A stretch of 64,000 bases of DNA from Chromatiaceae bacterium (GTDB lineage Bacteria > Pseudomonadota > Gammaproteobacteria > Chromatiales > Chromatiaceae). The translations under genes and the position numbers were made by a program. The notes under the pieces are model-generated. The model was not told the DNA's origin, did not search any database, and worked only from the letters and a program-made list of their open reading frames with translations. Where the stretch lies: contig CP037918.1 in NCBI GenBank assembly GCA_019356535.1, forward strand, positions 124,001 to 188,000, given 5' to 3'. Shown here in pieces: positions 28,800 to 42,354 of this stretch (position 1 is the stretch's first letter; the number at the start of each line of letters is the position of its first letter).

Positions 28800-30557
28800 G
28801 TGAATTATCGAGGTCTCTCTCTGTTGATGGCCCTGGGGCTGACGTTGGCGGCGTGCCAGGCCCCACTTGCCACGCGTCCCGATGTCTCGGCCGATGGCGC
28901 GGCGGAGGCGCGCCCGACGCCACCGACCTTGCCCTACACTCCCCCTGCGCGTCCCGAGGTCGAGCTGGATCAGGATCTGCTGTTCGCGTACCTGGTCGGC
29001 GAGATCGGGGCGCGCATGGGGGATTTCGACAAGTCGGTCAGGGCCTATCTTGAGGCTGCCGAGCGTGCGCGCGACCCCTATGCTGCGGAGCGCGCCACCC
29101 GTATCGCCTGGCATGTGCAGGACATGGGTTTGGCGCGGCGTGCGGCCCGACTCTGGGTCGAACTCGCACCCAACAGTCTGACGGCCCGCCAGTTCCTGGG
29201 GGTGGCTCTGTTGCGCGACGGTCGGGATGCCGATGCCCTGGCCCAGTTCTACGCCATGCTCGAGATTGCCCGCGCCCTCGGCAAGGATGGCTATCTGCTG
29301 GTGTCCGGCGCCCTGGCGCGCGAAAAGGACAAGGCGCGTGCCTTGGCGTTGATGCGCCGGTTGGTCGACGAAGCGTCGGACGCGGCAGCGAGTTATGGTC
29401 TGGCTCTGCTGCTGACCTCGCAGCATCGCTATCCCGAGGCCGAGAGATTGCTGAGAGAGGTGCTCGATCAGGCCCCCGAGCGGGTGGATGCCTGGTCGCT
29501 GCTGGCGCAAGTGTTGATCGCCCGCGGACAGCGCGATGCGGCGCTGGATGTGCTGGAACAGGCCCTGGAGCGTTACCCCGACAATCGCCGCTTGCGGCTC
29601 AGCCGAGCCCGCCTGCTGGTGGCGGTCGAGCGTTACGAAGATGCGCTGGCGCAGTTTCGCGAACTGTACCGGCGAGACCCGAAGGATTCCCAAGTGCTGT
29701 TCGGTTACGCCATGCTGGCCACGCAGCAGCGGCACTGGGACGAGGCGCGTCGGCTCTGGCAGGCGTTGCGGGGCATTCCGCGATTCGCCAACGACGCGAC
29801 CTATTTCCTCGGGCAGGTCGAGGAGGCCAGCGGCAACAAGGTTGCGGCGATCGGCCTGTATCGCAGCGTGAACCAGGGTGAGCTGCGGGTCGATGCGGCC
29901 ATTCGCGCCGCTGTCTTGGTCGCGGAAGATGGAAAGCGCCTGGACGAGGCCCGCCGGTTGCTGCGGCAGGCGCGCGAGGCGGTGCCCCGGCGCATGGCCG
30001 ATCTCTACCTTGCCGAGATTGAGCTGCTGCGGCAGTACGGCGCGGATCGTGCCGACATTCTCGGTCTTTACGAGGAAGCCCTGAAAGCCCTGCCGGGCAA
30101 CACCGACCTGCTCTACGGGCGCGGACTCTACTATTCCGAGGTTGGTGACTATGCGGCCATGGAACACGATTTCCGGCAGGTGCTGAAGCAGGATCCCCAG
30201 CATGCCGACGCCCTCAATGCCCTGGGCTACATGCTGGCGCAGCGGAAGATCCGTTTGCAGGAGGCGCGGCGCTACATCGAGCAGGCCTTGCGGCTCAAGC
30301 CGGATTCGCCCGCGGTTCTCGACAGCATGGGCTGGGTGCTGTACCGCCTGGGGCAGCTCGAGGCTGCGCGTGACTACCTGCAGCGCGCCTGGCAGCGGGA
30401 TCACGATGCCGAGATCACCGGCCACCTGATCGAAGTGCTCTGGGCGCTGGGCGAACGTCGCGAGGCGCGCCGGCTGCTCGAGTCTGCCCTGCAGGACGGC
30501 GCCACGGACGAATACCTCTCGCGCCTGCGCCAGCGTCTGCTCGAACCCGAGTCATGA
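28800..30557 (+). CDS. TPR-repeat lipoprotein
   Basis: A 585-residue lipoprotein. It starts (GTG) VNYRGLSLLMALGLTLAAC, a signal peptide whose lipobox cysteine is residue 19; an ATG at 28827 is the alternative start. The rest is a chain of tetratricopeptide-like helical pairs, for example ALAQFYAMLEIARALGKDGYLL, AERLLREVLDQAPERVDAWSLL and EARRYIEQALRLKPDSPAVLDSMGW. It matches in size and position the TPR protein that precedes lolB-ispE in Pseudomonas-type genomes (PA4667-like). Its function is unsettled; an outer-membrane scaffolding role is an inference. Here it overlaps ispE directly (ATGA) and no lolB lies between them. Confidence 0.85.
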   Translation: MNYRGLSLLMALGLTLAACQAPLATRPDVSADGAAEARPTPPTLPYTPPARPEVELDQDLLFAYLVGEIGARMGDFDKSVRAYLEAAERARDPYAAERATRIAWHVQDMGLARRAARLWVELAPNSLTARQFLGVALLRDGRDADALAQFYAMLEIARALGKDGYLLVSGALAREKDKARALALMRRLVDEASDAAASYGLALLLTSQHRYPEAERLLREVLDQAPERVDAWSLLAQVLIARGQRDAALDVLEQALERYPDNRRLRLSRARLLVAVERYEDALAQFRELYRRDPKDSQVLFGYAMLATQQRHWDEARRLWQALRGIPRFANDATYFLGQVEEASGNKVAAIGLYRSVNQGELRVDAAIRAAVLVAEDGKRLDEARRLLRQAREAVPRRMADLYLAEIELLRQYGADRADILGLYEEALKALPGNTDLLYGRGLYYSEVGDYAAMEHDFRQVLKQDPQHADALNALGYMLAQRKIRLQEARRYIEQALRLKPDSPAVLDSMGWVLYRLGQLEAARDYLQRAWQRDHDAEITGHLIEVLWALGERREARRLLESALQDGATDEYLSRLRQRLLEPES

Positions 30558-31426
30558 GCGACTGGTCGTGCGGTTGGCCGGCGCCGGCCAAGCTCAACCT
30601 CATGCTGCGCATCACCGGCCGTCGTGCCGATGGCTATCACGAGCTGCAGACGGTGTTCCAGTTTCTGGATCTGTGCGACGAGCTGGATTTTCGCCTGCGT
30701 GACGATGGTCGGATCGCGTGTCTGGACAGTCTCCCCGGCGTCGCTCCCGAGGCCGATCTCACGGTGCGCGCGGCGCGCCTGTTGCAGGACTGCGCCGGGG
30801 TGGCGCAAGGCGTGGATATCGCCCTGCGCAAACGCCTGCCCATGGGGGGCGGTCTGGGTGGCGGCAGCTCCGATGCCGCCACCGTGCTGCATGCGCTCAA
30901 CCATTTGTGGGGTTGTGGTCTGGACGATACCGAGCTGGCCGAGCTGGGCCTGCGCTTGGGGGCAGACGTGCCCATCTTCGTGCACGGGCATGCCGCCTGG
31001 GCCGAGGGCGTGGGCGAGCGTTTGCACCCCATAGAGCTGCCCGAGCCCTGGTACCTGGTAATTGCACCCGATTGCCATGTCGCGACTGGCGAAGTATTTT
31101 CCGCCCCGGAATTGACAAGGAATTCCTGTCCGATCACAATACGCGCCTTTATTGCGGGCGACCGACGCAACGACTGTCTGGCGGTGGTCCGCAAGCGCTA
31201 CCCGGCGGTGTCGCAAGTCATTGAATGGCTGGAAGATCACGCCGAGGCCCGGCTGACCGGAACCGGTGGCTGTGTGTTCGCCGAGTTTGCCTCGGTCGAT
31301 GCCGCCGAGCAGGTGCGGCAACTGGTGCCGGCCGAATGGCGGGCGTGGGTGGCGCGTGGCTGCAACCGCTCTCTCTTGCGAGAGCGACTGGAGCAAGAGA
31401 ACAACTGGGGTGTCGCCAAGCGGTAA
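30554..31426 (+). CDS. ispE: 4-diphosphocytidyl-2-C-methyl-D-erythritol kinase
   Basis: GHMP kinase of the MEP isoprenoid pathway, phosphorylating CDP-methylerythritol at the 2-hydroxyl. The 290-residue protein has WPAPAKLNLMLRITGRRADGYHELQTVFQF at its start. The ATP loop is in LPMGGGLGGGSSDAATVLHAL (about residue 95) and the C-terminal GHMP motif in EARLTGTGGCVFAEF (about 232). It overlaps the TPR gene by 4 bp. The last codons (GVAKR and stop, 31412-31426), with part of the codons before, lie inside the tRNA-Gln gene: the stop TAA comes from its D-arm. Confidence 0.97.
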   Translation: MSDWSCGWPAPAKLNLMLRITGRRADGYHELQTVFQFLDLCDELDFRLRDDGRIACLDSLPGVAPEADLTVRAARLLQDCAGVAQGVDIALRKRLPMGGGLGGGSSDAATVLHALNHLWGCGLDDTELAELGLRLGADVPIFVHGHAAWAEGVGERLHPIELPEPWYLVIAPDCHVATGEVFSAPELTRNSCPITIRAFIAGDRRNDCLAVVRKRYPAVSQVIEWLEDHAEARLTGTGGCVFAEFASVDAAEQVRQLVPAEWRAWVARGCNRSLLRERLEQENNWGVAKR

Positions 31427-31480
31427 GGCACCGGACTTTGACTCCGGCATTCGCAGGTTCGAATCCTGCCACCCCAGCCA
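31406..31480 (+). tRNA. tRNA-Gln (anticodon TTG)
   Basis: A full cloverleaf of 75 nt with encoded CCA. Acceptor strands TGGGGTG (31406-31412) and CACCCCA (31470-31476) pair. The D-arm includes CAAGCGGTAAGGC, the anticodon stem-loop is CCGGACTTTGACTCCGG with TTG, and the T-arm is GCAGGTTCGAATCCTGC. The tRNA begins inside ispE and is followed by prs, the order ispE-tRNA-Gln-prs known from pseudomonads. Its 3' end is duplicated at 31621 and its T-arm is copied in reverse at 31523. Confidence 0.97.
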
Positions 31481-31493
31481 TATTTGGAAACGG
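31463..31493 (+). repeat. Direct repeat, copy 1 (tRNA-Gln 3' end plus flank)
   Basis: 31 nt covering the 3' half of the T-arm, acceptor strand, CCA and the flank ATATTTGGAAACGG. It is repeated without change at 31621-31651, 158 bp downstream. Both copies are followed at once by a hairpin: CGGTCGC-ATC-GCGACCG (31491-31507) here and a CGGCCG-based one after copy 2. The arms differ in sequence but keep the pairing. Confidence 0.9.
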
Positions 31494-31522
31494 TCGCATC
31501 GCGACCGTGCTGGGAGTATCTT

Positions 31523-31631
31523 GGTGGCAGGGTTCGAACCGTAGAGGTTCGACGGAGGCGCGCAGCGCCGGAGCGCGCCGCCGCAGGCGGCGGCCCGCAG
31601 GGCCGAGGCGCAGCCGAGCTATCCTGCCACC
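31523..31631 (+). repeat. Structured element bounded by an inverted tRNA-Gln T-arm copy
   Basis: GGTGGCAGGGTTCGAACC (31523-31540) is the reverse complement of the tRNA-Gln T-arm/acceptor (31456-31473) at 17 of 18 positions. Its first 11 bases can also pair with 31621-31631. Inside this stem lie consecutive perfect hairpins. The first is TCGAACC/GGTTCGA with loop GTAGA (31534-31552). Three more have a GCA triloop: GGCGC/GCGCC (31557-31569), GCCGCC/GGCGGC (31577-31591) and GGCCC/GGGCC (31592-31604). A short GGC/GCC hairpin, also with GCA, is at 31607-31615. A tRNA-derived palindromic element or a structured RNA are both possible. Confidence 0.75.
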
Positions 31632-31651
31632 CCAGCCATATTTGGAAACGG
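31621..31651 (+). repeat. Direct repeat, copy 2 (tRNA-Gln 3' end remnant)
   Basis: Identical over 31 nt to 31463-31493. It holds only the 3' part of the tRNA and so cannot be a second tRNA gene. A GC-rich hairpin based on CGGCCG arms (31649-31668) follows. The rest of the gap to prs (31669-31761) shows no gene. Confidence 0.9.
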
Positions 31652-31761
31652 CCGCGCCGCGGCGGCCGCGCGAAAAATTCGATCGGGCGGCGCGGGCCGC
31701 CACAAGAGAGAGGTCGCCGGGGCGCGGCCTTCTTTGTCTCTGATACCTAGCGGAGAGCGAC

Positions 31762-42113: not shown

Positions 42114-42128
42114 ACCGCCTCTTTTTCG

Positions 42129-42213
42129 GGAGGGGTTCCCGAGTGGCCAAAGGGATCAGACTGTAAATCTGACGGCTCAGCCTTCGGTGGTTCGAATCCA
42201 CCCCCCTCCACCA
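42129..42213 (+). tRNA. tRNA-Tyr (anticodon GTA)
   Basis: 85 nt with encoded CCA. Acceptor strands GGAGGGG (42129-42135) and CCCCTCC (42203-42209) pair. The anticodon stem-loop ATCAGACTGTAAATCTGA holds GTA, a long variable arm (GGCTCAGCCTTC) marks it as class II, and the T-arm is GGTGGTTCGAATCCACC. It is first of the tRNA cluster before tuf, the standard thrU-tyrU-glyT-type order in this group. Confidence 0.97.
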
Positions 42214-42243
42214 GATTGCAAATCGCCCCCTCCCGTGAGTCGA

Positions 42244-42263
42244 GGGGGTAAGTTCGAACCGCC
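42244..42263 (+). repeat. Inverted near-copy of the tRNA-Tyr T-arm/acceptor
   Basis: GGGGGTAAGTTCGAACCGCC matches the reverse complement of tRNA-Tyr 42186-42205 at 16 of 20 positions, 31 bp after the tRNA. Its 5' end overlaps a hairpin arm (CCCCCTC 42226-42232 with GAGGGGG 42242-42248). The downstream GC-rich stretch (42264-42345) resembles, loosely, the element after tRNA-Gln. The gap 42214-42354 has no gene. Confidence 0.6.
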
Positions 42264-42354
42264 GGGTTTCGAGCAGGCGGTTCAAGCGGCGCGGGAGCGG
42301 CGGCCCGGAGGGTGGAGCGTCGAAGGCGGCGCCGATGGGCGAATCGGTTTCAGC

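Follow-up and report, generated by a model that had tools for sequence, protein, structure and literature searches.

An RtT RNA of the tRNA-linked repeat family behind tRNA-Gln in a Chromatiaceae bacterium, compared with its relatives

A single tRNA-linked repeat unit sits between tRNA-Gln(TTG) and prs in the window, the stretch of 64,000 nucleotides from a Chromatiaceae bacterium that was analyzed here, and by covariance-model search the element following the tRNA is a member of Rfam family RF00391 (RtT), the tRNA-linked repeats (TLRs) of E. coli tyrT. The match covers model positions 1-130 with E = 3.2e-06 over the 64-kb window, at a score barely above the gathering score of 45 bits. The element lies directly downstream of the tRNA on the same strand, the placement expected of a TLR, and its tail, ATCCTGCCACCCCAGCCA, is identical at 18 of 18 positions to the upstream tRNA-Gln 3' end, with the nineteenth nucleotide differing. 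An earlier sequence-only reading of this DNA had drawn a parallel to E. coli rtT; the parallel is right, and stronger than claimed, because the element belongs to that family and scores as RF00391 itself. RtT/TLR units have been on record since 1978 and, to our knowledge, have no agreed function. The element in the window is an ordinary member of this known, functionally unexplained family, to which comparison among relatives adds testable detail. Coordinates are collected in Table 1.

Table 1. Features of the RtT unit, its host locus and a second, decayed copy (positions within the window)
Feature	Position	Strand	Basis
tRNA-Gln(TTG), encoded CCA, host gene of the unit	31406-31480	+	ARAGORN; Rfam tRNA, 67.1 bits
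Direct repeat copy 1: 3' strands of tRNA T-stem and acceptor stem, CCA, trailer	31463-31503	+	repeat finder
Trailer hairpin between tRNA and RtT	31489-31507	+	sequence, fold; no T-run after it
RtT RNA (RF00391), full-length model match	31511-31638	+	Rfam covariance model, 47.9 bits
RtT closing helix, 5' arm (the "antisense copy")	31523-31540	+	inverted repeat, fold, arm-tail tracking, covariation
P2 hairpin TCGAACC/GGTTCGA, 7 bp (31534-31540 with 31546-31552)	31534-31552	+	sequence, fold, alignment
RtT core: four GCA-triloop hairpins	31557-31615	+	sequence; C(GNA)G enrichment in relatives
Direct repeat copy 2: tRNA 3' end plus trailer, i.e. closing-helix 3' arm plus CCA	31621-31661	+	repeat finder
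Hairpin resembling a terminator, T-rich tail; past the unit, before prs	31710-31731	+	terminator scan
Decayed RtT between tRNA-Tyr and tRNA-Gly	42244-42328	+	alignment to Tyr-linked RtT of congener G001

The repeated DNA unit consists of the tRNA 3' end, the trailer and the RtT, with a period of 158, and about 1.26 copies of it are present. The two direct repeat copies are 41 nt long, 93% identical and spaced 158 apart, with their opening 31 nt identical, as the sequence-only reading had observed (31463-31493 and 31621-31651); the repeat finder also recovers the 18-nt inverted pair that it described, 31456-31473 with 31523-31540, complementary at 17 of 18 positions (94%), and its coordinates hold throughout. 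The Rfam alignment places what had been called an antisense copy in the 5' strand of the RtT closing helix, and the second copy in the 3' strand and tail. By sequence and fold, 31523-31531 pairs with 31623-31631 to form the closing stem. A 7-bp hairpin and at least three GCA-triloop hairpins had been noted inside this stem; both are present, and we count four triloops (31562-31564, 31583-31585, 31597-31599 and 31610-31612), in hairpins at 31557-31569, 31576-31592, 31592-31604 and 31607-31615 with stems of 5, 7, 5 and 3 bp. These are the C(GNA)G hairpins of the RtT family. In the predicted RNA fold, the closing helix joins the 5' arm to the copy of the tRNA T-stem and acceptor 3' strands, and the modeled RtT resembles a tRNA 3' half whose T-loop is replaced by a hairpin core (P2 plus the GNA-triloop hairpins), with CCA at its end. 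Folding of 31406-31661 gives z = -3.4, a value reached by none of 200 shuffles.

Among relatives, CGNAG occurs 118 times in RtT cores vs 44 in dinucleotide shuffles (z ~14), and the C(GNA)G type accounts for 47 of 68 triloop hairpins. GNRA tetraloops, considered as an alternative hairpin signature, are not enriched. Neither GGA (z 0.9) nor ANGGA (z 0.9) is enriched in the same cores, so a general role as a CsrA sponge is unsupported.

The trailer hairpin lacks a T-run behind it and is therefore not an intrinsic terminator, and the terminator scan of the window found none between tRNA-Gln and the RtT. The one terminator-like site found, before prs, compares with 0.9 expected in shuffles; the stretch is conserved in congeners G005 and G007. 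Upstream, the ispE reading frame (30554-31426) overlaps tRNA-Gln by 21 nt (31406-31426), its stop falling within the D-arm, while a TGA precedes the tRNA in G005. Two sigma-70-like promoter matches (0.3 expected) lie within ispE at 31072-31140, about 270-330 nt upstream of tRNA-Gln.

RtT elements were found by covariance model in 18 of 38 near relatives (E <= 0.01) and, across the class, in 56 of 369 genomes (E <= 1e-4). The G005 ortholog, which occupies the corresponding locus, reaches 46.8 bits, and the Gln-linked unit in G006 reaches 52 bits. Because the covariance model itself includes the CCA end, a second sample was drawn by a motif search that leaves out the tRNA ends (GATGAGAACC, 4-24 nt, GGTTCGAC) over 257 billion bases. 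Of its 132 matches, 86 lie no more than 600 nt behind a tRNA on the same strand and none beside a tRNA on the opposite strand; given the number of bases searched, some of the remaining matches must be chance. Some matches carry labels outside Proteobacteria (Verrucomicrobia, Bacteroidota and others), but several of these are metagenome bins and may reflect contamination. Copies near tRNAs are thus common in related genomes, where the host tRNAs together serve at least 10 amino acids, and hosts whose own tail is copied include Gln, Tyr, Ser, Lys, Glu, Arg, Pro, Trp and His tRNAs, plus Val.

The last 19 nt of the element's own tRNA are copied with no more than two mismatches in 84 of 118 tRNA-linked elements, exactly so in 50, while tails of other amino acids reach that level in only 2 of 10,926 comparisons. 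The 5' arm follows the tail: over 46 distinct tails, arms pair with their own at -17.2 kcal/mol vs -12.0 kcal/mol with others, and none of 20,000 permutations reaches the observed tracking. The covariation of the arms that the sequence-only reading had proposed as a check is seen in an alignment of 39 elements, where 69 cells of the closing helix are double-changed vs 33.5 in shuffles and covariation is 0.312 vs 0.150, with 0.11-0.18 for slid versions of the helix. Pairing holds in 83.5% of cells in the T-stem half and 45% in the acceptor half. P2 is uninformative for covariation because its bases are nearly invariant, its GGTTCGA strand being the same in all aligned relatives. In 45 of the 84 elements the next 15 nt past the tail have diverged (fewer than 14 of 15 identical) and the tail still matches; the match is therefore maintained and not merely recent. 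In the other 39 the copy extends past CCA (at least 14 of 15 nt). Two Bacteroidota-labelled loci, L116 and L125, have a tRNA with no encoded CCA and a copy likewise lacking it. Copying from mature tRNA was considered as a source of the tails and rejected on these last two observations.

We think it quite probable, judging from sequence, that the locus is one RtT/TLR unit that is made with the tRNA and processed to CCA, releasing a small structured RNA. The unit would be co-transcribed with tRNA-Gln, no terminator having been found between them; tRNA-maturing enzymes would cleave its 3' end and trim it back to CCA; and the product would be a free RNA of about 120-130 nt, as has been described for the tyrT and rrn operons of E. 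coli. Recombination across the direct repeats would add and remove units, and cores may be swapped between units while conversion, or selection on the helix, keeps tail and arm in step with the local tRNA. Our best current guess for the role of the released RNA is that of a growth-rate-linked small RNA.

The history of the locus in relatives bears on how such units move. In G005, tRNA-Gln carries the unit as in the window, while in G007 the downstream flank follows tRNA-Gln directly, a clean empty site. G002 has the arm ggyggcagggcttgaacc six times behind tRNA-Gln (L190 1770-2390), alternating with a palindromic repeat and with no tail copy; we take this repeat to resemble the REP sequences of Pseudomonas. 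G003 and G004 each have, upstream of an intact tRNA-Gln, an additional copy with its T-loop interrupted by an RtT core (GGTTCGA-core-ATCC), and the start of the same fusion is found in G006 at a contig end; the fused tRNA-Gln loci are L011 254-416 (-), L027 54-187 (-) and L196 1-91 (-). Analogous fusions affect tRNA-Ser and tRNA-Val in L107 and L094. The fused copies in G003 and G004 have CCG in place of CCA, and the tRNA body in G003 is degenerate, so they look like decayed duplicates. The fusions would be simply explained if tRNA and RtT were duplicated together and the DNA between the two GGTTCGA stretches was then deleted. RtT cores behind different tRNAs have a median similarity of 0.67 within a genome vs 0.61 between genomes, and exceed 0.75 in 21% vs 2.3% of cases, figures that also count tandem copies and overlapping matches and come mostly from a few genomes. 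For that reason we take only one pair as clear, the Gln and Val units of G037: their cores share 94% identity, with each tail and arm fitted to its own tRNA, a pattern consistent with conversion between existing units.

The window itself contains a second RtT. The 141-nt gap between tRNA-Tyr and tRNA-Gly (42214-42354) holds a remnant below the Rfam cut-off, which aligns to the Tyr-linked RtT of congener G001 with a score of 81 (50 or less in 300 shuffles) and is missing one core hairpin and the terminal tRNA copy; the tRNA-Tyr locus of G001 (L022) retains an intact unit. A weak Rfam match to the sX4 sRNA at 42114-42298 (32.8 bits, cut-off 70) covers tRNA-Tyr and the remnant, and the Xanthomonas sX4 family and a tRNA-Tyr plus RtT region may overlap.

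These observations could also be taken to suggest a selfish, MITE-like element that targets tRNA 3' ends, as the sequence-only reading had offered, or a core that spreads via universal T-arm sequences. The likeness of cores within genomes, the fusions into T-loops and the empty site in G007 would all suit such mobility, but unit exchange and deletion between direct repeats account for every one of them. Terminal inverted repeats, target-site duplication and dispersed copies, the marks of a MITE, are not what is found: no further copy above the cut-off occurs in the 2.75-Mb genome, where the unit is single-copy at that strength, the sole such copy lying behind tRNA-Gln and the decayed one behind tRNA-Tyr, and neither a transposase nor terminal inverted repeats are seen with the element. 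Elements lie on the tRNA strand directly behind the tRNA, and the direct repeat that flanks the unit is the tRNA 3' end itself. We therefore regard a mobile element or a spreading core as unlikely.

tRNA ends often serve as attachment sites, and the unit might instead be recombination debris, a tandem duplication of a tRNA 3' end with no function as RNA. Not every congener has the unit, G002, G003 and the Tyr-Gly gap of the window show decayed copies and repeat-invaded arrays, and Salmonella rtT shows a 175-bp change in repeat number (PMC2658671). Against it stand the covarying closing helix, the tail match kept after the flanks have diverged, and the enriched C(GNA)G triloops, and we hold this reading to be quite unlikely.

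The sequence-only reading had further proposed a switch on tRNA maturation. In the form considered here, the T-arm and acceptor 3' strand of the tRNA would pair with the arm and the 5' acceptor strand with the second copy, trapping the precursor in a non-tRNA fold. The folding that it called for, with both pairings, does predict a competing fold: in ViennaRNA the exchanged fold beats an enforced cloverleaf by 4.1 kcal/mol for 31406-31660, by 1.8 kcal/mol with the transcript end at 31642, by 14.7 just after the arm and by up to 16.7 kcal/mol during transcription of the core. In a set of 81 elements, an element's own body competes more strongly with the cloverleaf than a swapped body does (full-unit median 7.3 vs 0.8), but this control does not indicate selection, since any tail/antitail/tail layout gives the same result; a switch would be a by-product of the design, because such a layout must compete. 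All arm bases already have partners within the RtT, and the fold model includes neither tRNA tertiary structure nor modification, while the tRNA folds first. The T-loop match is broken by TGAGAA in place of TTCGAA in 20 of 35 tRNA-linked elements, a ratio taken from the covariance-model sample alone, as the motif-based sample favors TGAGAA by construction. In 17 of 84 relatives an intrinsic terminator stands between tRNA and RtT (1.4 in shuffles), resembling the dual terminators of rrn operons. The switch thus appears possible thermodynamically in the model but is not supported, with no sign of selection, and we judge it very unlikely. Most improbable of all is that the core is a T-loop-addressed module, exchanged via the universal GGTTCGA...ATCC and refitted in its helix to each host tRNA, with the pairing of arm and tRNA controlling maturation.

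The distal repeats of E. coli tyrT were reportedly treated by Bosl and Kersten in 1991. The unit in the window agrees with these repeats (RF00391) in its full-length model match, its position behind a tRNA, its end in the tRNA 3' end plus CCA and its tandem-repeat layout, and differs in lying behind tRNA-Gln, as a single unit, with a G+C-rich core; its P2 arm reads TTCGAACC, vs TGAGAACC in the common RtT form. E. coli TLRs have 18-19 bp in common with the preceding tRNA or rRNA at its 3' end (PMC8144298), and K-12 has 22 copies at 10 loci by the description of Rudd 1999 given in PMC8144298. The element here likewise has 18 bp of the 3' end identical, directly downstream on the same strand, in a different lineage and as a unit known from sequence alone. 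RtTs of Actinobacillus are visible on Northern blots (PMC4986893), and a tandem G-A motif in RtT has been reported from covariation (PMC7657543). The rRNA-linked RrA, RrB and RrF are expressed, are transcribed via read-through of a first terminator, and were bound by Hfq and CsrA in vitro, while a claim on TLRs in amino-acid starvation of E. coli has been retracted (PMC8144298). Like RrA, RrB and RrF, the unit in the window belongs to the TLR family, immediately follows a stable-RNA gene and precedes a terminator, here the terminator-like hairpin before prs; its host, in contrast, is tRNA-Gln and not 5S rRNA, and the GGA (CsrA) motifs are unenriched in the wider family. The comparison turns function into testable questions: is a match between helix and tRNA required, and does 3' processing yield a CCA-ended RNA? 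It also supplies a natural unit-absent congener (G007) and the T-loop fusions. The matching of tail and arm to the host tRNA, seen across many lineages and tRNA types, outlives the surrounding sequence and reaches well past Enterobacterales, where the rRNA-linked form was described.
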